Of a stretch of DNA of 64,000 nt, positions 11,557-24,624 are shown piece after piece. The stretch is from Arachidicoccus terrestris (GTDB lineage: Bacteria > Bacteroidota > Bacteroidia > Chitinophagales > Chitinophagaceae), in the NCBI RefSeq assembly GCF_020042345.1, contig NZ_CP083387.1, forward strand, positions 434,001 through 498,000, given 5' to 3'. Position 1 is the stretch's first letter. Every line of letters begins with the position of its first letter. The notes beneath the pieces were generated by a model, which was given only the letters and a program-made list of their open reading frames with translations, searched no databases and was not told the DNA's origin. The position numbers and the translations under genes are program-made.

Positions 11557-12702
11557 TTAACTTTTTGCCGGCTCGGGAAGTCCGATCTGGATCACATTAT
11601 TTAACTCCAGCTGGATACGGGCTGCGGCAGCGATTTTCAGCTTATCGACTATCTTAACATAGATCTCCGTGGTTTTCACGGTTTTATGACCCAACATTTT
11701 AGAAACGGTATAGATATCCGTCCCTGCGGCCAACTGCAAGGTCGCGTAGGTGTGCCTGAAGCCATGAAAGGTAAAATGTTTTTCAATACCGGCCTGTTTC
11801 AACCACTCAGGCAGATGCCTGGTCACATCCTTATATTCAAGATTTGCAAAAACATACGGACTCCGCCCCCTTTCTCCCAAAAGACTATAAGCCTGATCAG
11901 AAATGGGCAAAACAACGGCCCCGCTGGTCTTTTCCTGAATAAATTGAATATGATAGAAGCCGGCGGAGCCGATAATTTCTGACCATCGCAAATCCTGAAT
12001 ATCAGAAAACCTGAGTCCTGTCAGGGCAGAAAACAAGGCCGCCCTCTTTACGACCAAAGAATCACAATAGGCATGGGCCATCCGCTGCAATTCTTCCAGA
12101 AACAGAAACGGCCGGTGCGTTTCCTTAGATGCAATAGGCTCTACCCTTTCATACAGGTTCACCAATAATAATCCCTTTTTATAGGCTTCTTTTAAGGTCA
12201 GTCTGAACCTTGAAAAATAGCTGACAGCGGTATTTACGCCGATATTCCTTTTACTCCTGCCCACAGCGGGACCGGACAGAAGATACTCAGAGAACGCCTC
12301 ACATAGACCTTCGGTCATCTGTTTAAAGGTCACCTTTTCTCCTGCAAAAGTCTTGAAATACTGTACTGTCATCTTCCAATTGTAATCCCCTTTGCGCTTA
12401 TCCGCCTGCAGTTGCAGGAAGTCGATAAAATTGGCATTGAACCTCTCTTCAGAAAGAAAATCGAATCGCAGATTCTGAATATCCAGCTGCCGTCTCGCCC
12501 GGATATTCTCGGCCAGATTCATAGTTTCCGTATTATGCTCCCTTTCCAGCCGGTTTTTAGCTTTTTTATAGGTAAAGAGTTTCAGGTAATGCTTTCTTTG
12601 AATTTTACCGGTTCCTGGATTAATTACTGGGGGCCATATATCCAGAAACAGCGTATATCTTTCGTTACTGATCTCCTTTTTGCGTAGTGTCACCTTGCCC
12701 AT
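11557..12702 (-). CDS. Tyrosine site-specific integrase of the element
   Basis: This 381-residue phage-type integrase has an N-terminal arm-binding region (about 1-80), a SAM-like core-binding domain (about 90-185) and a C-terminal catalytic domain. Catalytic residues are visible: R231 (TGLRFSDI), H313-xx-R316 (HGFRHTYA), H339 (LGHK) and the nucleophile Y348 (TTEIYVK). It catalyses integration and excision of the element. The upstream HTH gene overlaps its start by 38 bp, so the pair is translationally linked. It lies about 0.8 kb from the mnmE stop, at the end of the element. Confidence 0.95.
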   Translation of the reverse strand: MGKVTLRKKEISNERYTLFLDIWPPVINPGTGKIQRKHYLKLFTYKKAKNRLEREHNTETMNLAENIRARRQLDIQNLRFDFLSEERFNANFIDFLQLQADKRKGDYNWKMTVQYFKTFAGEKVTFKQMTEGLCEAFSEYLLSGPAVGRSKRNIGVNTAVSYFSRFRLTLKEAYKKGLLLVNLYERVEPIASKETHRPFLFLEELQRMAHAYCDSLVVKRAALFSALTGLRFSDIQDLRWSEIIGSAGFYHIQFIQEKTSGAVVLPISDQAYSLLGERGRSPYVFANLEYKDVTRHLPEWLKQAGIEKHFTFHGFRHTYATLQLAAGTDIYTVSKMLGHKTVKTTEIYVKIVDKLKIAAAARIQLELNNVIQIGLPEPAKS

Positions 12703-13285
12703 CGTGTCTGTTCTTTAAATAGTTTTTTATAATCCTGTCCACTGACCTCTTTGGAACATAAACTAATCTCCCATCCTTCAGCTTAGGCACCTTCTTCCTT
12801 TTTAGCAGCGTGTACAGGGTTTTCTGACCAATATTAAATTTTGTCTCTACTTCTTTTATGTGATAACAATCTTCCTTTGTGAGCGGCTTTATCTCTTTGG
12901 GTCCAGTGGATGGAATAATCACTAATTCCGGCCTCTTAAAGATGTTTTCCATTTCACGTCGATGAATGCGAATCTTCCGTTCAGAAAGATTAATCGCCAT
13001 TATTTTCCCATTATCGATCATCCGGTAAACCAGTCTTATATGACATCCTATTATTTTCGCCACGTCTTTTACGGTTAAAATGTCGCTGAAATTTAACTGT
13101 TCCACCGGCGCCTTCATAACCTTAACCGTTTCATTATTTGACTTGTCAATTTTTTTCTGACGCTGACGTAGTTTATAATTCTTACGGGCACATTGTATCG
13201 AACAAAACCTGGTGACAGTCGTCTGTGCGCAAAACGTTTTCTGGCAATGCTGACAAACTCTTTTAATACGAATATTTGTACTCAT
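12665..13285 (-). CDS. Zinc-finger and HTH protein co-transcribed with the integrase
   Basis: From the ATG at 13285 the product has 206 residues. An upstream ATG at 13306 would lie inside the 10-bp repeat leader, so the later start is preferred. The N-terminus has a Cys-rich zinc-ribbon-like segment (CQHCQKTFCAQ then RFCSIQCARKN). Two Xis-like helix-turn-helix units follow (about 66-115 and 138-190), each of the type VKDVAKIIGCHIRLVYRMID or KEVETKFNIGQKTLYTLL. The gene overlaps the integrase start, so it is a plausible directionality or regulatory factor. Two tandem excisionase-type folds in one protein is noteworthy. Confidence 0.75.
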   Translation of the reverse strand: MSTNIRIKRVCQHCQKTFCAQTTVTRFCSIQCARKNYKLRQRQKKIDKSNNETVKVMKAPVEQLNFSDILTVKDVAKIIGCHIRLVYRMIDNGKIMAINLSERKIRIHRREMENIFKRPELVIIPSTGPKEIKPLTKEDCYHIKEVETKFNIGQKTLYTLLKRKKVPKLKDGRLVYVPKRSVDRIIKNYLKNRHDGQGDTTQKGDQ

Positions 13286-13287
13286 CG

Positions 13288-13347
13288 TAAGTGTATTTAA
13301 AGGCATTTAAGTATACATAAGTGCATTTAAGGGTATTTATGTGACAT
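13288..13347. repeat. Six tandem 10-bp TAAG units upstream of the integrase operon
   Basis: On the plus strand TAAGTGTATT (13288), TAAAGGCATT (13298), TAAGTATACA (13308), TAAGTGCATT (13318), TAAGGGTATT (13328) and TATGTGACAT (13338) follow each other without gaps. The block forms the leader of the HTH/integrase operon. It is related to the tra leaders but runs in the opposite orientation relative to its gene. Confidence 0.7.
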
Positions 13348-13529: not shown

Positions 13530-14906
13530 TTATTTGCCAATACAAAACTTTCCAAAAATAGTTCCTAAAATGTCACGATCAACTTCAATTTTACCTGTGA
13601 TCTCTCCCAAGAAATGGAGACACCTTCTAATATCAATTGCAAGTAAATCTCCGGTTACCTGATTTTCCATTCCCATCTGAATATCTTCAAGGCTTTCGGC
13701 AATTTTCAAAAGAATTGCATGATGTCTTGCGTTAGTCACAATCGTGTTTTCAGTCTGAAGTTCTTCGCCAACAGCTTTCAAATACATTAACTGTTTTAGA
13801 TCTTCGATACCTGTTTTCTTTTTAGCAGAAATACAAACAGACTGACCATCAGGATTTTTAACGGACGCTACACTAGCAGCAGTTACTGCATCCATTTTAT
13901 TAAATACCTTAATCGTTTTCGTTTGGTAAGGCTGCATCCAATCTACATCAACAGGCTCAGAAGTTGTACTATCCACCAAATATAAAATTATATGGGCGTT
14001 TTCCGCATTGGATTTACTTCTTTCGATACCCAGGTTCTCAATATGGTCACTGGAATGTTCCCTGATACCCGCTGTATCAATCAGCCTGAACAAAATGCCA
14101 TTAATATTCAGGGTTTCTTCAATCGTATCTCTGGTCGTGCCTGCAATATCGCTGACAATAGCCCGCTCTTCATTTAAAAGTGCATTTAACAATGTAGATT
14201 TCCCAGCATTGGGTCTGCCAATTATAGCCACCCGTACGCCATTTTTAATTACATTGCCCAGCTGAAAAGAATCAATCAGCTTTTGAGTGGCTGACTTTAT
14301 CTGACTGATCAAATTCATAAATTGGCTCCTATCCGCAAACTCCACATCCTCCTCGGAAAAATCCAATTCGAGCTCTATCAAGGCTGCAAAATGAATTAAC
14401 TCTTCCCTCAATTTTTGCAAATCTTCGGAAAACCCGCCTCTTAACTGTTTTAAGGCCGTTTGTTGTGCTGCCTTACTATTAGAGGCAATCAAATCGGCTA
14501 CTGCCTCAGCCTGGGTTAAATCCATTTTTCCGTTAAAAAAAGCACGCTCTGTAAATTCGCCTGGTCTGGCCATTCTGGCCCCTGATGCGACCAATACCTG
14601 CAATAACCGTTGTTGGATATAAGCTGAGCCATGGCAGGAAATCTCAATAACATCCTCACCGGTATAAGATCTGGGATTCCTGAATAGAGATATTACCACC
14701 TCGTCGATAACCTCATCCTGATATCTGATGACTCCAAAGTGCAGTGTATGCGTTTTCTGGCGGCTTAAATCCTTACCGGCAAATAAAGCGTTCACGATAG
14801 CGAAAGTCTCTGGGCCACTGATTCTTATAATACCTAAAGCACCCGCACCTTGTGGCGTAGCAATAGCAACAATCGTATCTAGGAAACTCTCCGGTAAATG
14901 ACTCAT
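13530..14906 (-). CDS. mnmE: tRNA modification GTPase MnmE
   Basis: This full-length 458-residue protein has an N-terminal tetrahydrofolate-binding domain (1-120), a helical domain, an inserted G domain with the P-loop GRPNAGKS (230-237), DIAGTTRD (253-260) and DTAG (277-280), and the conserved C-terminal CIGK (455-458). With MnmG it forms the (carboxymethyl)aminomethyl modification at U34 of certain tRNAs. A -7-like TATTTTTG lies at 14921-14928 on the minus strand. The gene is intact next to the integrated element, and its 3' end and terminator are undisturbed. Confidence 0.98.
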   Translation of the reverse strand: MSHLPESFLDTIVAIATPQGAGALGIIRISGPETFAIVNALFAGKDLSRQKTHTLHFGVIRYQDEVIDEVVISLFRNPRSYTGEDVIEISCHGSAYIQQRLLQVLVASGARMARPGEFTERAFFNGKMDLTQAEAVADLIASNSKAAQQTALKQLRGGFSEDLQKLREELIHFAALIELELDFSEEDVEFADRSQFMNLISQIKSATQKLIDSFQLGNVIKNGVRVAIIGRPNAGKSTLLNALLNEERAIVSDIAGTTRDTIEETLNINGILFRLIDTAGIREHSSDHIENLGIERSKSNAENAHIILYLVDSTTSEPVDVDWMQPYQTKTIKVFNKMDAVTAASVASVKNPDGQSVCISAKKKTGIEDLKQLMYLKAVGEELQTENTIVTNARHHAILLKIAESLEDIQMGMENQVTGDLLAIDIRRCLHFLGEITGKIEVDRDILGTIFGKFCIGK

Positions 14907-16940: not shown

Positions 16941-18161
16941 CTATTCCGCCAGTAAGCCGTCAATCAGTTCATTAAATTCTTTTACGTAATTCGTATAATA
17001 AGATCCCGTACCAGGCCCCTGGAAGCCGGTATCGATCTTACGCACCTTACCGGTCTTGTCCAATATAATCGTTGTTGGGAACATTTTGATCGGCGTAAAC
17101 TGGGGCAATGTTTTTTCGGTCCTTTGCTTATCAGTTACCGTAACCCCTGTTATCAGTACGGGATACTGTATATCATAAGCTTTCTGAAACTTCAGCAGAC
17201 TCTTTCTGGAACGGTCAAAATCAGTCGTCAATTCATAAGCCAGGCTGATCACCTCTATCCCTTTATCTTTATTAGCATTATAGTATTTACTTAGAAAGGC
17301 GGTTTCATCCATACAATTGGGGCACCAGGATCCCATCAGGTCAATTATGACGACTTTATTCTTAAACCGCTTGTCTTTAATGGATACTGGTTTTCCGTCT
17401 AAATCCTTAAATGTAAAATCCAGATAGCCAGGTTCGCCTTTTTTAAGATACATAGCTGCCTCGTTAGGTAAGCTGGGCGTATCGGTTTTATAAGCGCTAA
17501 ATGACTGTTTGCTGGAAGCACCACTATATTGCATACCGGTTAGAGAATCTCCCTTCACCTTCGCTTTAAACAACAGGCTGTGAATTCCGTCAAATCCTGA
17601 AAAATACAAAGAGTCACCCGTGACAATGCCCTCCAGATATCTGTCATCTCCATAAGGCGTCAGTACGGAACCTGTAACCCTGGCTCCCTTCTGGTGTAAA
17701 GTAGCAATTGCAGGAGAAGTCTCTCCCGACCGGCTCTTAAAGGTTACCTGCCATTTGCCGTCCACACTTTGTTTTGGGATGCCCAGGCTGGGGTCAAAAC
17801 GAACTGCGTGTTGCGCTGAGGCTGTCAGTGGCAAAACGATTTCCTGACTGGTGGAGGCTCTTTGCCATATCCCGCTCAGGCTATCCTTATTGATAATTCT
17901 AAATCTGAAGCCTGATTCAAAAACCGGCATTCCTACGATGAGCGAATCTCCTTTAGCTACCACATCTGGCACGCGCATCTGCTCATCTCCATTCACCACA
18001 TAGAAAACGAGTTTGCCATCTTCTACCGCGCTACGCAGGTTAAATACGATTCCTTCTCCATCCGGTCTGTGAATTACAGCCCGCCACATAGACTGGTTAA
18101 TCTGGGCCCCTCCCCAAAAGGAGAGCAACAATAGCATTAATAAGACACTACATTTTTTCAT
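16941..18161 (-). CDS. Secreted TlpA-like thioredoxin-fold protein
   Basis: This protein of about 406 residues from the ATG at 18161 has a signal peptide ending near GGAQ. The N-terminal two thirds (to about 240) are beta-rich and of unknown family. The C-terminal third is a TlpA/ResA-like thioredoxin domain with the redox motif WCPNC (Cys280 and Cys283). It is probably a periplasmic thiol-disulfide reductase. It is divergent from the SusC/SusD operon, and the 18283-18313 inverted repeat lies between the two promoters, so they may be co-regulated. A -7-like box TACCTTTG is at 18252-18259 (minus strand). Confidence 0.88.
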   Translation of the reverse strand: MKKCSVLLMLLLLSFWGGAQINQSMWRAVIHRPDGEGIVFNLRSAVEDGKLVFYVVNGDEQMRVPDVVAKGDSLIVGMPVFESGFRFRIINKDSLSGIWQRASTSQEIVLPLTASAQHAVRFDPSLGIPKQSVDGKWQVTFKSRSGETSPAIATLHQKGARVTGSVLTPYGDDRYLEGIVTGDSLYFSGFDGIHSLLFKAKVKGDSLTGMQYSGASSKQSFSAYKTDTPSLPNEAAMYLKKGEPGYLDFTFKDLDGKPVSIKDKRFKNKVVIIDLMGSWCPNCMDETAFLSKYYNANKDKGIEVISLAYELTTDFDRSRKSLLKFQKAYDIQYPVLITGVTVTDKQRTEKTLPQFTPIKMFPTTIILDKTGKVRKIDTGFQGPGTGSYYTNYVKEFNELIDGLLAE

Positions 18162-18282
18162 GGATAAATCATTAATTCTCAATCTTCATTCAAATAAGAA
18201 AGGCAAAGGCCTGTTCAAATTTTCAGACGAGGTGTTTTTGTTATTACAAGGCAAAGGTAACGTAGATCCATTAAAATTTTAA

Positions 18283-18313
18283 ATTTTAGTCTATAATATT
18301 TGTAGACTAAAAT
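18283..18313. promoter_or_regulatory. Perfect 11-bp inverted repeat, putative operator
   Basis: ATTTTAGTCTA (18283-18293) and TAGACTAAAAT (18303-18313) are separated by 9 bases. The right part of the palindrome overlaps the -33 box TTTG (18299-18302) of the leftward edge of the SusC promoter. It also sits immediately upstream of the divergent thioredoxin-gene promoter. This is the geometry of a repressor site for a dimeric regulator; the regulator is not in this window as far as can be told. Confidence 0.7.
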
Positions 18314-18329
18314 TCTCACCCTATCTTTG
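18299..18329 (+). promoter_or_regulatory. Bacteroidota-type promoter for the small peptide/SusC transcript
   Basis: TTTG (18299-18302), 19 bp spacer, TATCTTTG (18322-18329): a full match to the TTTG-N19-TAnnTTTG consensus of the primary sigma factor. Transcription should start near 18336, giving a leader of about 340 bases before susC. Confidence 0.8.
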
Positions 18330-18360
18330 CCTCCGGTTAAAACCGATACAAGTATACAAA

Positions 18361-18429
18361 ATGGCAAACGACAAAGAAAAAGGCGCACCGGCATTTATGA
18401 AGATCACTACATCCTATTATTGTAGCTGA
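18361..18429 (+). CDS. 22-residue leader peptide upstream of SusC
   Basis: The frame ATG...TGA encodes 22 residues beginning MANDKEKGAPAF and ending MKITTSYYCS. It starts about 25 bases after the predicted transcription start, and a second in-frame ATG at 18397 would give a 10-residue peptide. The run Thr-Thr-Ser-Tyr-Tyr-Cys-Ser at the C-terminus, ahead of a structured leader, is reminiscent of attenuator peptides whose translation senses an aminoacyl-tRNA; Cys is the rarest residue there. No homologue can be named. The peptide could equally have a function of its own. Expression is inferred from the strong promoter only. Confidence 0.5.
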   Translation: MANDKEKGAPAFMKITTSYYCS

Positions 18430-18678
18430 GCTGCGCCTGATATTACGATAGAATTTCTACGTTTCTTTCCCTCATTTCTATTCGGAGCAAGGAACAAATC
18501 TTCTAAAATACAATGTAAACTACAGATCGTTGTATGACGCGCCAATGACAATTCCAACACTGAGAATTGTTATTGGAGTCCGCTATATCATACATAGCGG
18601 CCATTAACCGTATCTGTCGTTTACAGGCATCTCTTTATATCAAATACATCAATTCAAATTATCCAAATCTCAAACAAA
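18430..18678 (+). promoter_or_regulatory. Structured leader before susC
   Basis: The 249-base leader has two adjacent stem-loops. CCAATGACAATTC (18542-18554) pairs with GAATTGTTATTGG (18564-18576) over 13 positions with one G-U pair. CCGCTAT (18580-18586) pairs with ATAGCGG (18594-18600). A weaker 6-bp stem (ATACAA with TTGTAT) lies just upstream. Neither stem is followed by a T-run, so they look like regulatory structures rather than simple terminators. No known riboswitch class was recognised. Confidence 0.5.
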
Positions 18679-21600
18679 ATGAAACATCGTTACCTATTAT
18701 CGTTGTTACTCTGGGTAAGCTTCTCAGCACTGCATGCACAGACGCCGGCAGTAAAGGGAACTGTCCACTCAGATACCGGCACCCCCCTGTCCGGGGTAAG
18801 CATCCGCATCGTGGGCGGCAAAGCAACTTTAAGCTCCAACCTGGGCAATTTCACGCTTACAGCCAACGCCGGTGATACACTAAACTTTTCCTACATCGGC
18901 TACGAGCCTGCACAAATAGTTGTTGGTGACCCTAGCACTCCGATTGACATAGCCTTACATCAATCTTCCAGTGAACTCAGTGAAGTCGTTGTCACAGCCC
19001 TGGGTATCTCAAAAGAGAAAAAATCACTTGGTTATTCAGTGCAAGAGCTAAAAACAGAACAGCTCAATACAACGCAGACCCCGAACTTAGTCAATAACCT
19101 TTCGGGGAAGATAGCGGGTGTCAGAGTCACTAATTCTCAGGGAGACATGGGCTCTTCCAGGATTGTGATTCGTGGAGAAACATCTATTGCGGGAAACAAT
19201 CAGCCCTTATTTGTCATAGATGGCGTTCCTGTTGACAACTCCCAACTGGGTGCCGGCGGTTCAAGAGACTATGCCAATGCAATCGCTGATCTGAATTCTG
19301 AAGACATTGAATCAATGAGTGTTCTAAAAGGGCCCAATGCAGCAGCCCTTTATGGCAGCCGTGCAGCACATGGTGTCATCATCATTAAAACCAAATCAGG
19401 CAAAAAGAAAAAAGGACTCGGCATTAGCTTTAATTCTAACAATACTTTCAGCAGTTTGCTTGTGCTTCCTGAATATCAGAATGTATTTGGGCAAGGAGGT
19501 AACGGACAGTTCAGTTACGTCGATGGCAACGGCGGCGGCCTAAATGATAACGTGGATGAAAGCTGGGGCCCCAGAATGGAAGGCCAGTTAATTCCCCAGT
19601 TCGGCTCAAATGGAGAAGCGGTCCCTTTTGTTGCACATCCAGACAATGTCAAAAGCTTCTTTAAAACTGGGTTTTCTACATCCAACAGTATTTCCATCGC
19701 CGATGCGGGCGACAAATACAGTTATAGAGTCGGGTTCAATGACGGGCATCAGACAGGTGTTATTCCCAATTCAAAACTCAATAAAAGAAATATCTCTTTA
19801 AACAGCAGATTCAAGATTACCGATAAACTCAGCCTTTCGGCCATGGCCAACTACCTGATTTCAGATGCACCCAACCTGCCGGGCATTGGTGGCAAGAGGG
19901 CCAGCAGCACAATGTTACAGTTTACCTGGTTCGGCAGACAAGTGGATATGCAATCACTGAAAGACAGCTATTTTTCTACCGGCAGCCCCGACAACTGGAA
20001 CAACGCCTATTATCCGAATCCTTACTTCGGTGCCTATGAAAATACCGTTCAGCAAAGAAGAGACCGTCTGATTGGCGACGTCGGACTGACCTACGATATT
20101 GCTCCAGGTTTAACCGCTCATTTTCACAGCGGTACAGATTATTACAATGACCGGAGAAAGCTAAAAATTGCCTATGGCACCAGTGGCACCCCATTTGGAT
20201 CTTATGAAGAAATTGGTTACACCGTTAATGAAAACAATACAGAAGGTACACTTAATTTTGATACAAAACTCAATAGTGACTTCTCACTGAATATTCTGGC
20301 CGGCGGTAATATCCGTAACAAAACCTATGAAGAGAATGATCAAAAGGCACCAAGACTGGCCGTTGGCGGCGTGTATACCCTGGATAATTCCAGAGATCCG
20401 TTAATATCCAATAACTACTACAGTCATTTAAAAGTCTATAGCCTTTACGGGTCCGCCCAGTTGGGTTATAAGAACTATGCTTTTATCAATGTAACGGCCA
20501 GAAATGACTGGTCTTCTACCCTGCCTGAAAATAATCTTTCCTATTTCTATCCGTCTGTAAACGGTACGGTCGTATTCACAGATTTATTCAATATTAAAAG
20601 TGATGTACTGAGCTATGGCAAGGTGCGCGGTGGCTGGGCAGAAGTGGGCGCTGATACAGATCCCTATCAACTCTACAACACCTATGGGTTCTCCCTGTTT
20701 GGTTCCAGTCCGCTGTTGACAACTTCAGGCATCCAGATGAATGAAAAGTTCCAGAGTGAATCCACCACTTCAACTGAACTGGGTCTGGATCTGGGCTTCT
20801 TCCACAGCAGAGCTACATTGGATATCAGTTTATATAATACCAACAGCTTTAACCAGATCCTAAAAGTAGATATCACGCCTACTTCAGGCTATACGCAACA
20901 GTTATTAAATGCAGGCAAGATCAATAACAAAGGCCTGGAAGTGGCCCTGGGTGTTACGCCTATAAAAAACGAGGACCTAAGCTGGAACTTCTCTGTAAAT
21001 TTCGCGCGGAACAAAAGCGAAGTAAAGTACCTGGATGATGCCGGGCAACTGGAGAACTATACATTAGGCAGTGATGGAACGGTACAGGTAGTCGCAGCTG
21101 TAGGCAAAACCTATGGCACCCTTATTGGAACGGCCTATCAGCGCGATAACAAAGGTAATATACTGGTTGGCTCCAATGGCCTGCCCCAAACCGACCCCAC
21201 ACTGCAAGACCTGGGGCACTTTACACCCGACTGGAACGGAGGATTCTACAATAATTTAAAATATAAAAACTGGGGGCTAAGTTTTTTAATTGACGCCAGT
21301 ATCGGCGGCTCCATATATTCTGGCAGTAACTCTACGGGACAATACACGGGGGTACTTGCTTCCACACTCCCTGGAAGAGGCGCGGAATTCGGCGGGCTCA
21401 ATTATTACTATCCGAACAACGATAAAAACAAATTGCCGGTGGCTGCCTCAGGGAGCGCACCCAATGGTGAGAAAATATACGATGATGGCATAATTGCGCC
21501 GGGCGTAACCGGTGACGGAAAGGCCAATGAGCAGATCATACCGGCTTCCTTATACTACAAGACCATTTCCTCAGTGGATGAGCAGTATGTATATGATGCC

Positions 21601-21840
21601 AGTTATGTCAAATTCAGAGAACTGCGTATCAGCTACCAATTACCGGGCGCCTGGTTGTCCCGTATAGGTGTTCAGGGTGCCAGCGTTGCACTGGTAGGCC
21701 GCAATCTTTTCTTTATTTATAAAAAAGCCCCCAATATTGATCCGGAAACTGCCTTTTCTACGGGCAACGGACAAGGTCTGGAAGATCTTACACTGCCCAC
21801 TTCCAGAAATTATGGCATCAACTTAAGTGTTCAATTCTAA
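18679..21840 (+). CDS. SusC/RagA family TonB-linked outer membrane protein
   Basis: This 1053-residue protein has a signal peptide (cleavage near Ala20-Gln21), a carboxypeptidase D-like regulatory domain (about 24-95), a TonB plug (about 105-220) and a 22-strand-type beta-barrel ending in Phe (NLSVQF). There is no N-terminal STN domain, so it should not signal to a FecR/ECF pair; none is adjacent. It imports a ligand delivered by the SusD-like lipoprotein encoded 11 bp downstream. The substrate is unknown. No glycoside hydrolase is nearby, and the neighbours are an S8 peptidase, a thioredoxin protein and an aminotransferase. Confidence 0.95.
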   Translation: MKHRYLLSLLLWVSFSALHAQTPAVKGTVHSDTGTPLSGVSIRIVGGKATLSSNLGNFTLTANAGDTLNFSYIGYEPAQIVVGDPSTPIDIALHQSSSELSEVVVTALGISKEKKSLGYSVQELKTEQLNTTQTPNLVNNLSGKIAGVRVTNSQGDMGSSRIVIRGETSIAGNNQPLFVIDGVPVDNSQLGAGGSRDYANAIADLNSEDIESMSVLKGPNAAALYGSRAAHGVIIIKTKSGKKKKGLGISFNSNNTFSSLLVLPEYQNVFGQGGNGQFSYVDGNGGGLNDNVDESWGPRMEGQLIPQFGSNGEAVPFVAHPDNVKSFFKTGFSTSNSISIADAGDKYSYRVGFNDGHQTGVIPNSKLNKRNISLNSRFKITDKLSLSAMANYLISDAPNLPGIGGKRASSTMLQFTWFGRQVDMQSLKDSYFSTGSPDNWNNAYYPNPYFGAYENTVQQRRDRLIGDVGLTYDIAPGLTAHFHSGTDYYNDRRKLKIAYGTSGTPFGSYEEIGYTVNENNTEGTLNFDTKLNSDFSLNILAGGNIRNKTYEENDQKAPRLAVGGVYTLDNSRDPLISNNYYSHLKVYSLYGSAQLGYKNYAFINVTARNDWSSTLPENNLSYFYPSVNGTVVFTDLFNIKSDVLSYGKVRGGWAEVGADTDPYQLYNTYGFSLFGSSPLLTTSGIQMNEKFQSESTTSTELGLDLGFFHSRATLDISLYNTNSFNQILKVDITPTSGYTQQLLNAGKINNKGLEVALGVTPIKNEDLSWNFSVNFARNKSEVKYLDDAGQLENYTLGSDGTVQVVAAVGKTYGTLIGTAYQRDNKGNILVGSNGLPQTDPTLQDLGHFTPDWNGGFYNNLKYKNWGLSFLIDASIGGSIYSGSNSTGQYTGVLASTLPGRGAEFGGLNYYYPNNDKNKLPVAASGSAPNGEKIYDDGIIAPGVTGDGKANEQIIPASLYYKTISSVDEQYVYDASYVKFRELRISYQLPGAWLSRIGVQGASVALVGRNLFFIYKKAPNIDPETAFSTGNGQGLEDLTLPTSRNYGINLSVQF

Positions 21841-21851
21841 AAGTTCCAATC

Positions 21852-23312
21852 ATGAAATATTCACTCAATAAATTTCTATTTCGCTCAGGTGCATTACTTA
21901 TAAGCGGTGTGCTGATCCTGGGCATCAGCTCCTGCAAAAAAGAACTTGTTCGTATCAATAAAAACCCCAATGCAGTAGAAAATCCGACACCCGACTATCT
22001 TTTAGGCGGCGCAGAAAAAAGCGCTGCAGACGCCTATTGGGGAGCGACCGCCAACTTCGGATCCAGCCAGCTGATTATTCAGCAATGGGCGGCGATTCAA
22101 TATACGGATGCGGACCGGTATATTTATGACGCCAGCAGTTTCTCTTCTTTTTGGACAGCGTTATACTCCGTTTCACTGACCAACATTAAAGTGATGATGA
22201 AACTGGCCGAAGAGGCTGGAAATAATAACTATATCGGTGTCGGCCATATACTCAGAGCCTGGAATTTTCAACTGCTGACAGATGCATATGGCAATGTCCC
22301 CTACAAAGAATCCGGAAAAATTGAATCGTCTTCCCTGGCAGCCTATGACAGCCAGCAAGAGGTTTATACCGGTATACTTAGTGAATTGGATACAGCTTTA
22401 GTACAACTCGATCCTAATGGCACACCTATTGAGGGTGATTTGATCTACGATGGCAATATTGCTAACTGGAGAAGATTTGCCCGGAGCCTGCAGTTGCGCA
22501 TCGCACTCAGAATCGCAGACGCAGACCCGTCGCTGGCAAAAGCTACAGTTCAAAAAGTACTGAACAGTAAAGAATTGATCAGTTCCAACGCTCAGACAGC
22601 GCAGTTCGTCTACGATGAATCTCCGAACTGGAACCCCGTCGCCAGCAATTTTTCTACACGTAATGATTACAGAATTTCCAAGACAGTTGTAGACCGGTTA
22701 TATGCACTCAAGGATCCGAGGCTGCCCGTGTATGCCAGACTTCCCGAAAATGATAAGATTACCAAATATGTAGGTGTTCCCAACGGCTTAACGACCTCAG
22801 ACGCCAACAGCCTGGGACTGGCCAACACCTCTAAACCCGGCACATATTTTTCAGCAGATAATGCACCGGCAGTTATCCAGGCATACAGTGAAGTACTCTT
22901 CTTAAGAGCAGAAGCCGCAGCAAGGGGCTTCAGTTCCGAAAACCCGGCTACGCTATACAATGAAGCCATCACCGCCTCCCTGAAGCAATACGGCATCACT
23001 GACGCAGCAGTGATTGGAGCCTACCTTGCTCAGGCCTCCGTTAAATATGACGCCTCCAATTACAAGAAATCCATTGGAGACCAAAAATGGATCGCACTAT
23101 TCGGAGAAGGGCTGGAAGCCTTTGCCGAATGGCGCAGACTGGATTATCCAACGCTCCAGGCAGCTGTTGCAGGCAAATACGGAGATAAAATTCCGGTACG
23201 CTTTATTTATCCCTCAACAGAGCAGACATTAAATGGCAAGGCCTATAAGGCGGCAGTGGCAGCCCAGGGTACTGATGACTTGTTTACCAAACTCTGGTTT
23301 GATAAACATTAG
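21852..23312 (+). CDS. SusD-like outer membrane lipoprotein (SusD-like_2 type)
   Basis: This 486-residue lipoprotein has a lipobox around ISSC (Cys27 region) followed by the NKNPNAVENPTPDYLL pattern and helical repeats typical of the SusD-like_2 (SusD/RagB nutrient-binding) family. It starts 11 bp after susC and forms its partner lid. The operon ends at a strong hairpin 25 bp downstream. Confidence 0.92.
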   Translation: MKYSLNKFLFRSGALLISGVLILGISSCKKELVRINKNPNAVENPTPDYLLGGAEKSAADAYWGATANFGSSQLIIQQWAAIQYTDADRYIYDASSFSSFWTALYSVSLTNIKVMMKLAEEAGNNNYIGVGHILRAWNFQLLTDAYGNVPYKESGKIESSSLAAYDSQQEVYTGILSELDTALVQLDPNGTPIEGDLIYDGNIANWRRFARSLQLRIALRIADADPSLAKATVQKVLNSKELISSNAQTAQFVYDESPNWNPVASNFSTRNDYRISKTVVDRLYALKDPRLPVYARLPENDKITKYVGVPNGLTTSDANSLGLANTSKPGTYFSADNAPAVIQAYSEVLFLRAEAAARGFSSENPATLYNEAITASLKQYGITDAAVIGAYLAQASVKYDASNYKKSIGDQKWIALFGEGLEAFAEWRRLDYPTLQAAVAGKYGDKIPVRFIYPSTEQTLNGKAYKAAVAAQGTDDLFTKLWFDKH

Positions 23313-23454: not shown

Positions 23455-24624
23455 ATGATCACTATACATTCAAAATTTCCCCATACGACCACCAGCATTT
23501 TTACAGAAATGTCCAAACTGGCCATAGATAATAATGCCATAAACCTGGGACAGGGATTTCCGGATTACCCCATGGACCCGCTCCTGATTAAAGCAGTCAC
23601 AAAAGCAATGGAAAACGGCTATAATCAGTACGCGCCATCCAGCGGCTACGAAGCCTTCAGAAACCTGTTAGCAGCAAAGGCCCAGGCCGAACTAGGGCAG
23701 TCATTTGACCCTGTGACGGAAATCACTATTACGCCCGGGGCCACCAACGCACTTTTTACCGTAATTTCCACCTTTGTCAGACAAAAAGACGAGGTGTTGT
23801 ACTTTGACCCGGCCTATGACAGCTATCACCCGTCGATACTCGCCGTCGGCGGCATTCCCATTGCGGTGCCCATGCAATACCCCGACTTCCAGCTGGACAT
23901 TGATCTACTAAAAGGGTATATAACGAAAGCCACCCGGATGATTATACTCAATACACCACATAACCCAACGGGCGCCACGCTTAAGTCAGCGCAATTAAAA
24001 GCGCTCCATGAATTATTAAAAGACACGAATATTATCGTACTCTGCGATGAGGTTTATGAGCATGTTATTTTTGACGACCAGCCTCATCATTCTCCATTAG
24101 GCTTTCCGTTTTTAAGAGAACGTTCTATATCGGTACACTCTTTTGGAAAGATGTTTAATTGCACCGGCTGGAAGACGGGGTATATTATGGCCGACGCCCC
24201 GTTAATGGCAGAAATCAGAAAAGTGCATCAGAACAATGCCTTCAGTACATTTTCTCCGGTCCAGATCGCGCTCACTGAATATATGCATGATCCGGATACC
24301 TACCTAAGACTTGCCGGGTCCCTGCAAAAGAAGAGAGATCTTTTAATGAACGCCTTAAAGGGTAGCCCCCTTAAACCCTTTCCGGTGGAAGGCAGCTATT
24401 TTCAGTTATACAGTTACGAGGGCTTTAGTGAGATGAAAGAAAAGGACTTCGCTGTCTGGCTGACCAAAGCAGCCGGCATCACAGGGATCCCCCTCTCCTC
24501 TTTATGCGAAAAGTTCGGTGATCATAAACTCATACGTTTTTGTTTTGCCAAAAAAGAAGCAACCCTTCAACAGGCGGCTGAGAAACTGAGCCAACTGGGC
24601 AAAACCCTGACCCCTCCCCATTAA
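23455..24624 (+). CDS. PLP-dependent aminotransferase, methionine aminotransferase type
   Basis: This 389-residue class I/II aminotransferase has NLGQGFPDYP (30-39), YNQYAPSSGY (56-65), the cofactor-binding D198/Y201 (LCDEVYEH) and the Schiff-base lysine K232 (SFGKMFNCTGWKTGY). The GQGFP-D and NQYAPSxG pattern matches the YbdL-like methionine (and related) aminotransferases and kynurenine aminotransferase-like enzymes. A role in methionine salvage is therefore the best guess. It has its own terminator and is separated from susD by another, so it is probably monocistronic. Confidence 0.85.
   Translation: MITIHSKFPHTTTSIFTEMSKLAIDNNAINLGQGFPDYPMDPLLIKAVTKAMENGYNQYAPSSGYEAFRNLLAAKAQAELGQSFDPVTEITITPGATNALFTVISTFVRQKDEVLYFDPAYDSYHPSILAVGGIPIAVPMQYPDFQLDIDLLKGYITKATRMIILNTPHNPTGATLKSAQLKALHELLKDTNIIVLCDEVYEHVIFDDQPHHSPLGFPFLRERSISVHSFGKMFNCTGWKTGYIMADAPLMAEIRKVHQNNAFSTFSPVQIALTEYMHDPDTYLRLAGSLQKKRDLLMNALKGSPLKPFPVEGSYFQLYSYEGFSEMKEKDFAVWLTKAAGITGIPLSSLCEKFGDHKLIRFCFAKKEATLQQAAEKLSQLGKTLTPPH

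Follow-up and report, generated by a model that had tools for sequence, protein, structure and literature searches.

The window analyzed here is a 64,000-nucleotide stretch (G000:C1:434001-498000) of the genome of the soil bacterium Arachidicoccus terrestris (G000; 4.9 Mb, one contig). Its region of interest lies between a redoxin gene and, divergent from it, a gene for a SusC/RagA TonB-linked protein followed by one for a SusD-like lipoprotein, the arrangement that defines a SusC/SusD importer. A methionine-type aminotransferase, which the original prediction placed downstream of susCD, is indeed encoded there according to a profile match above cut-off. The features, in window coordinates, are:

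16941-18161, minus strand: divergent thioredoxin-domain (redoxin) gene; PF08534 and PF00578 above cut-off
18250-18257, minus strand: -7 element TACCTTTG of the divergent thioredoxin-domain gene; from sequence, a predicted promoter
18282-18314, no strand assigned: operator palindrome with 12-bp arms and a 9-nt centre; from sequence, pattern search and recurrence across family genomes
18299-18302, plus strand: -33 box TTTG, within the operator; from sequence, its spacing to TANNTTTG recurring at other sites
18322-18329, plus strand: -7 box TATCTTTG; from sequence, conserved in both sister species
18361-18429, plus strand: leader ORF of 22 codons and stop, MANDKEKGAPAFMKITTSYYCS; of equal length and gap-free in three Arachidicoccus species
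18381-18438, plus strand: 7-bp pairing bracketing the leader end (arms 18381-18387 and 18432-18438); predicted from the window sequence
18421-18423, plus strand: sole Cys codon of the leader (TGT); two and three Cys codons here in the sister species
18542-18576, plus strand: 13-bp stem-loop with one G-U pair; present, probably outside any conserved attenuator
18580-18600, plus strand: 7-bp stem-loop; present, probably outside any conserved attenuator
18679-21840, plus strand: susC; TIGR04056 above cut-off
21852-23312, plus strand: susD; PF12771 (SusD-like_2) above cut-off
23455-24624, plus strand: methionine aminotransferase gene; PRK09082, 486 bits against a cut-off of 420

The best solved relative of the window SusC is BT_2264 (E 2.1e-125); for the window SusD, other solved chains outscore BT_2263. 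The BT2263-2264 pair is described as importing oligopeptides (PMC10132118), and a Bt2263/64-peptide complex is mentioned elsewhere (PMC7782687). By sequence relationship the window SusCD thus probably imports peptides, and by analogy we infer that these may be sulfur-bearing peptides.

Elsewhere in the window, a recombinase-like ORF and a DNA-binding-like ORF (11557-13306, read by eye) stand beside an mnmE-like gene (13530-14906) and are possibly an integrated element.

Operator palindrome and promoter

The palindrome ATTTTAGTCTA-N9-TAGACTAAAAT, as read from the sequence, is perfect at 18283-18313, and its arms extend to 12 bp (18282-18293 and 18303-18314). With up to 3 mismatches allowed it matches once in the window, and in none of 100 shuffles. 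The perfect 11-bp inverted repeat that had been described as covering the -33 box is therefore present, with TTTG inside it and 19 nt between TTTG and TATCTTTG. This arrangement is not peculiar to the window: when 68 of the 96 operator sites in the family were inspected (136 site-directions), TANNTTTG was found within 40 nt past the operator in 30, compared with a mean of 4.9 and a maximum of 11 in 200 shuffles, and 21 of these 30 occurrences stand 11-13 nt from the operator. An element matching TACCTTTG is also found beside the operator at a further locus (L072). The model used for the promoter scan is of the sigma-70 type, which does not reach Bacteroidota promoters. As the -33 TTTG sits inside the palindrome, the simplest reading would be repression by occlusion. 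Of the original proposal of repression at the operator, control at the palindrome stands, given the promoter overlap and the recurrence at sulfur genes described below; repression as such is a conjecture from position.

An operator shared with sulfur genes

The search of the genome for further copies that had been suggested yielded three exact copies of TAGTCTA-N9-TAGACTA, counting the window site, and none of the control pattern. The second copy precedes a gene that we take to be DUF2490-like and a PstS-like binding protein, and the third precedes another SusC. Across the family the exact operator occurs at 96 sites in 53 of 294 genomes, as against 8 sites in 8 genomes for the reversed-pattern control (totals summed by hand from the per-genome table). 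Class-wide it was found in 6 of 395 genomes, 3 of them outside the family, with 7 for the reversed control (a hand count), and is thus not enriched; the exact word is therefore particular to Chitinophagaceae.

Genes reading away from the operator include cysD (L080, L083), cysH (L093), an arylsulfatase (L067), TrhO (L069), FGE-domain proteins (L064, L107) and a siroheme-synthase-like protein that falls below its cut-offs (L108). This recurrence at cysD, cysH, arylsulfatase and TrhO marks the palindrome as the sign of a sulfur regulon, with an operator shared among sulfur-assimilation genes as in Rrf2-type sulfur regulons. At MetQ (L090), TauE (L098, L084), a cystathionine-type enzyme (L108, below cut-offs) and further siroheme-like genes, it is the 3' end of the gene that lies at or near the operator. 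The strands accordingly rule out that the operator precedes metQ, tauE and the majority of siroheme-like genes, and because several sulfur genes end at the operator instead of lying downstream of it, the best reading is slightly less certain. Many other sites stand beside TonB-dependent receptors, unrelated genes or genes without an evident function in sulfur metabolism. Ahead of operators there are, repeatedly, genes of the PhyH type and of the fatty-acid-hydroxylase type (one of each profile-checked).

Fatty-acid-hydroxylase-type membrane proteins lie beside operators at L079, L092, L096, L103, L108 and L122 (one checked, the others assigned by resemblance), and their tie to sulfur is not obvious. 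At G000:C1:2111612 (L002, L077) an exact operator is accompanied by a second palindrome, AAGTCTACTAAAATAGTAGACTT, about 110 nt away; the two are flanked on one side by a DUF2490-like gene with a PstS-like binding protein, and on the other by a divergent gene that is presumably HAD-like.

A candidate Rrf2 regulator

The A. terrestris genome has three Rrf2 genes above cut-off. For one of these (3389172-3389573), a search at E 1e-10 finds matches in 213 of the 294 family genomes, or 198 when 15 weak matches are dropped by hand. Rrf2-type regulators had been named as a possible class for the palindrome, and this is plausible: the candidate is present in all 53 genomes that carry the operator (p 5e-11, kinship ignored), in two of them (G078 and G226; L080, L083) the gene order is rrf2-cysH-operator-cysD, and in G163 the candidate gene is as far from an operator as in those two. 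Like CymR and IscR-type regulators, the candidate has an Rrf2 domain above cut-off and a cysteine/sulfur context; it differs from them in falling below both NCBIfam equivalog cut-offs (CymR 67.2 against 195, IscR 74.4 against 207.55), and its binding to the palindrome is a prediction. In A. terrestris itself no operator lies near the candidate gene, and cysH is not found close by in any of its 30 best-matching loci. We favor this protein, with some reserve, as the regulator probably acting at the palindrome. That another Rrf2 paralog, or a regulator of another family, binds there instead is a lesser though serious possibility: the candidate also occurs in about 145 genomes that have no exact operator, a paralog 46% identical to it adjoins two operator sites in G001, and at L109 the operator has another Rrf2 gene, HypR-like and distinct from the candidate, at a distance of about 0.4 kb. 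Against this stand the candidate's presence in every operator genome and its position, upstream of cysH, the operator and cysD in G078 and G226 and at a like distance from an operator in G163.

A leader ORF that ends in cysteine codons

The 22-codon frame described as ending in Tyr-Tyr-Cys-Ser is confirmed at 18361-18429, beginning about 25 nt past the expected transcription start. In an alignment of three Arachidicoccus species the operator, the promoter and the ORF all align, with no gaps inside the ORF, and similarity collapses past the leader stop codon. The leaders end in SYYCS (window) and in NYCCS and NHCCC (the two sister species). An ORF of this kind accompanies the operator more generally: a short Cys-cluster ORF starting within 80 nt is found in 34 of 135 operator site-directions, compared with 13.5 in 200 shuffles (sd 2.9, maximum 22), and under a strict rule of three Cys in five residues the count is 12 of 135, compared with 0.9 (maximum 4).

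The comparison of leaders of orthologous SusCD that had been proposed shows palindrome and leader beyond chance across genomes. The susC ortholog set comprised 16 loci of the named collection and 24 of the family genomes, which, with two species shared and one locus (L138) cut off, leaves 37. A rule demanding an ATG start and, within the last nine residues, a stretch of four with three Cys was passed by 22 of these 37 5' regions, and by 2 of 72 regions upstream of other long ORFs within the fetched loci. When the same rule is applied to other residues, Leu passes in 9 of 37, which we attribute to the same repeats being translated in a different frame; any other residue passes in at most 3. Shuffle controls gave 0.04 against 10 of 16 loci, and 0.21 against 11 of 21. 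By eye, the 24 family loci comprise 17 with a Cys run, the window with one Cys, and 6 with none (L202, L203, L208, L217, L220, L221), of which L203 has PYCCC-stop with no in-frame ATG. In Mucilaginibacter all 10 loci have a Cys run, the leader of L134 standing ahead of the whole operon; a Cys-run leader is also present at the susC ortholog of a Flavobacteriaceae MAG, and is absent from the Dysgonomonas and Hymenobacter orthologs.

Substitution rates in the leader differ between groups. In the Mucilaginibacter group L133/L135/L136/L137 the result is clear (dN 0-0.11, dS 0.17-0.68); among the Arachidicoccus pairs (dN/dS 0.39/0.93, 0.63/1.26 and 0.29/0.44) and for L131-L132 (0.12/0.17) dN is below dS and the values are noisy; for L129-L131, L129-L132 and L007-L066 dN exceeds dS. 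Apart from the terminal Cys run, leader sequences differ widely between genera. The regulatory codons that an attenuator's leader ORF should carry are seen through the orthologs. The suggestion that sulfur amino acids are the signal stands to the extent that cysteine is likely; its case rests on the orthologs, the window leader having a single Cys codon, so that ribosome stalling would probably have less effect here than it has in the sister species.

Three further leaders, at L007 (1557-1613), L066 (minus strand) and L063 (2958), end in CCCRQATY, CCCRQATY and CCRPATYS, respectively, with their Cys codons falling within a strong hairpin; those of L007 and L066 precede PhyH-type genes, and that of L063 lies far ahead of a receptor gene.

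Stem-loops and the stretch past the leader stop

The 13-bp and 7-bp stem-loops reported before susC are present, and the sequence from 18330 to 18700 has a more stable predicted fold than any of 100 shuffled versions (z -3.74). Neither stem is conserved as such in the two sister species, and the view of the tandem stem-loops as an attenuator falls on this point and on the lack of any intrinsic terminator-like site in 18150-18700. A classical attenuator, in which the 13-bp or the 7-bp stem would serve as terminator, is consequently very improbable: the stems exist and the region is well folded, but similarity ends at the leader stop, and among 27 selected leaders a terminator-like hairpin, even by a loose definition, is found in only 5. 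An Rfam scan of the region returned only hits far below gathering scores. The plasmid collection, when searched, gave zero matches.

Since there is no intrinsic terminator, a drop in expression would most likely come about through Rho or a translational switch. After the leader stop C exceeds G in 23 of 27 hand-picked leaders (means of 21.8 C and 13.8 G), as compared with 47 of 77 control upstream windows (18.7 C and 17.4 G; Mann-Whitney 7.5e-5, kinship ignored). The C-rich stretch is absent from both sister species, so that Rho is put forward here as a conjecture. At L201 the spacer from leader to susC is only 24 nt, if the first ATG is the start, and this fits a translational switch better than Rho. 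In three Mucilaginibacter loci (L129, L131, L132), judged by eye, the final Cys codons could base-pair with the sequence immediately past the stop (GCTGY with RCAGC).

SAM riboswitches at related loci

The SAM riboswitch RF00162 has no match in the window, and in some relatives it precedes the orthologous redoxin/susCD genes. Covariance-model matches were obtained in 4 of 8 loci scanned and in 3 of 20 in a second set. With genes named by eye, the riboswitch precedes redoxin-susCD in L129, L133 and L137; in L139 the genes that follow it are a cysteine-desulfurase-like one, redoxin and susCD. At three further loci (L204, L209 and L213) a relaxed operator with 2-3 mismatches comes first, then the SAM riboswitch, then the Cys leader and finally susC; three putative sulfur signals are stacked there, of which the operator is the weakest.

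Two Mucilaginibacter loci have tRNA-like genes between the control region and susC (L134 2376-2445 and L139 3413-3482; Rfam RF00005, 47.7 and 46.1 bits). Inspection by eye gives them the anticodon GCA (Cys) and an acceptor arm in which one base appears to bulge. ARAGORN calls no tRNA at these positions.

Proposed mechanism and alternatives

Together, the palindrome and the Cys-ending leader suggest nutrient import switched by the cysteine supply of the cell. The reading we consider quite likely is that sulfur status controls a SusCD importer, probably of peptides, through an operator and cysteine-dependent ribosome stalling, with no classical terminator. A repressor, most likely the Rrf2 protein 3389172-3389573, would bind the palindrome over the -33 box and, when sulfur is plentiful, would keep susC off and perhaps the divergent redoxin gene too, judging from position and regulon. 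The transcript would open with the leader ORF ending in Cys codons. With Cys-tRNA scarce, the ribosome would halt at the leader end and the downstream gene would be expressed; with Cys-tRNA ample, it would complete the leader and expression would fall, most likely through Rho acting on the untranslated stretch past the stop, or through a translational switch. From the sequences we infer repression, stalling and the manner in which stalling would raise expression.

Two other explanations of the leader have to be weighed against this one. The operator alone might matter in the window genome, the leader being the degenerating remnant of a cysteine attenuator, without any sensing function here; the single Cys codon, where the sister species have two and three, and the existence of susC orthologs without any Cys run are consistent with such decay. 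The leader has nevertheless kept its length, its frame and its ITT-YYCS/YCCS end, and a single codon can still stall a ribosome under strong limitation, which counts against decay and leaves it rather unlikely, though of some weight. It is also conceivable that the Cys-rich leader acts as a peptide, sensing metal or redox state, and not through its codons, as Cys runs could bind metals and redoxin genes adjoin. This we regard as improbable, for outside the terminal Cys run the leaders differ widely between genera, the gene contexts are those of sulfur assimilation, and regulatory codons just before the stop, as in attenuators, suit a codon-based reading. Cysteine-dependent stalling combined with an operator is accordingly preferred.

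The case is stronger across the related genomes than in the window itself. On balance it seems probable from the genome comparisons that Cys-codon leaders are widespread in Bacteroidota, stacked with a probably Rrf2-bound operator and in some cases with a SAM-I riboswitch, so that one SusCD peptide importer, and other sulfur genes as well, would answer to up to three sulfur sensors, with no intrinsic terminators.

Relation to known systems and significance

Cysteine leader peptides ahead of sulfur genes, in which several Cys codons follow one another close to the stop and no terminator is conserved, are described in Actinobacteria (PMC1262725). The present leaders resemble them in the short ORF and the lack of a terminator; most orthologs also end in a Cys run, for which the window leader, with its one Cys, is an uncertain case. 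The present leaders are unlike the actinobacterial ones in occurring in Bacteroidota, ahead of a SusCD importer and downstream of a palindromic operator. Mycobacterial experiments on cysteine leaders were reportedly published by Canestrari in 2020, under a title that calls the ORFs leaderless; here, in contrast, the ORF starts some distance past the expected transcription start. In the uORFC-8-2 motif ahead of cysS in Rhodobacterales, Cys codons likewise stand in tandem within a short ORF; that motif ends in an intrinsic terminator (PMC8632094), none of which was found in 18150-18700 of the window. Leader-peptide attenuation ahead of amino-acid operons is described in Flavobacterium psychrophilum, cysteine not being named in the available excerpt of that source (PMC9723704). 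In the literature searched, the main texts of mostly open-access papers, no report of cysteine leaders or of this operator in Bacteroidota was found.

The findings thus appear to extend cysteine leader peptides to a phylum for which the literature searched holds no report of them. The 23-bp word that marks the sulfur regulon should be useful for annotation in this family. In Bacteroidota, SusCD pairs are among the major importers of nutrients, and most discussion of them concerns glycans. Here one SusCD group seems to be governed by sulfur status, sensed at the level of codons. This suggests a role that can be put to the test, the acquisition of sulfur from peptides, for SusCD pairs that have no known substrate.
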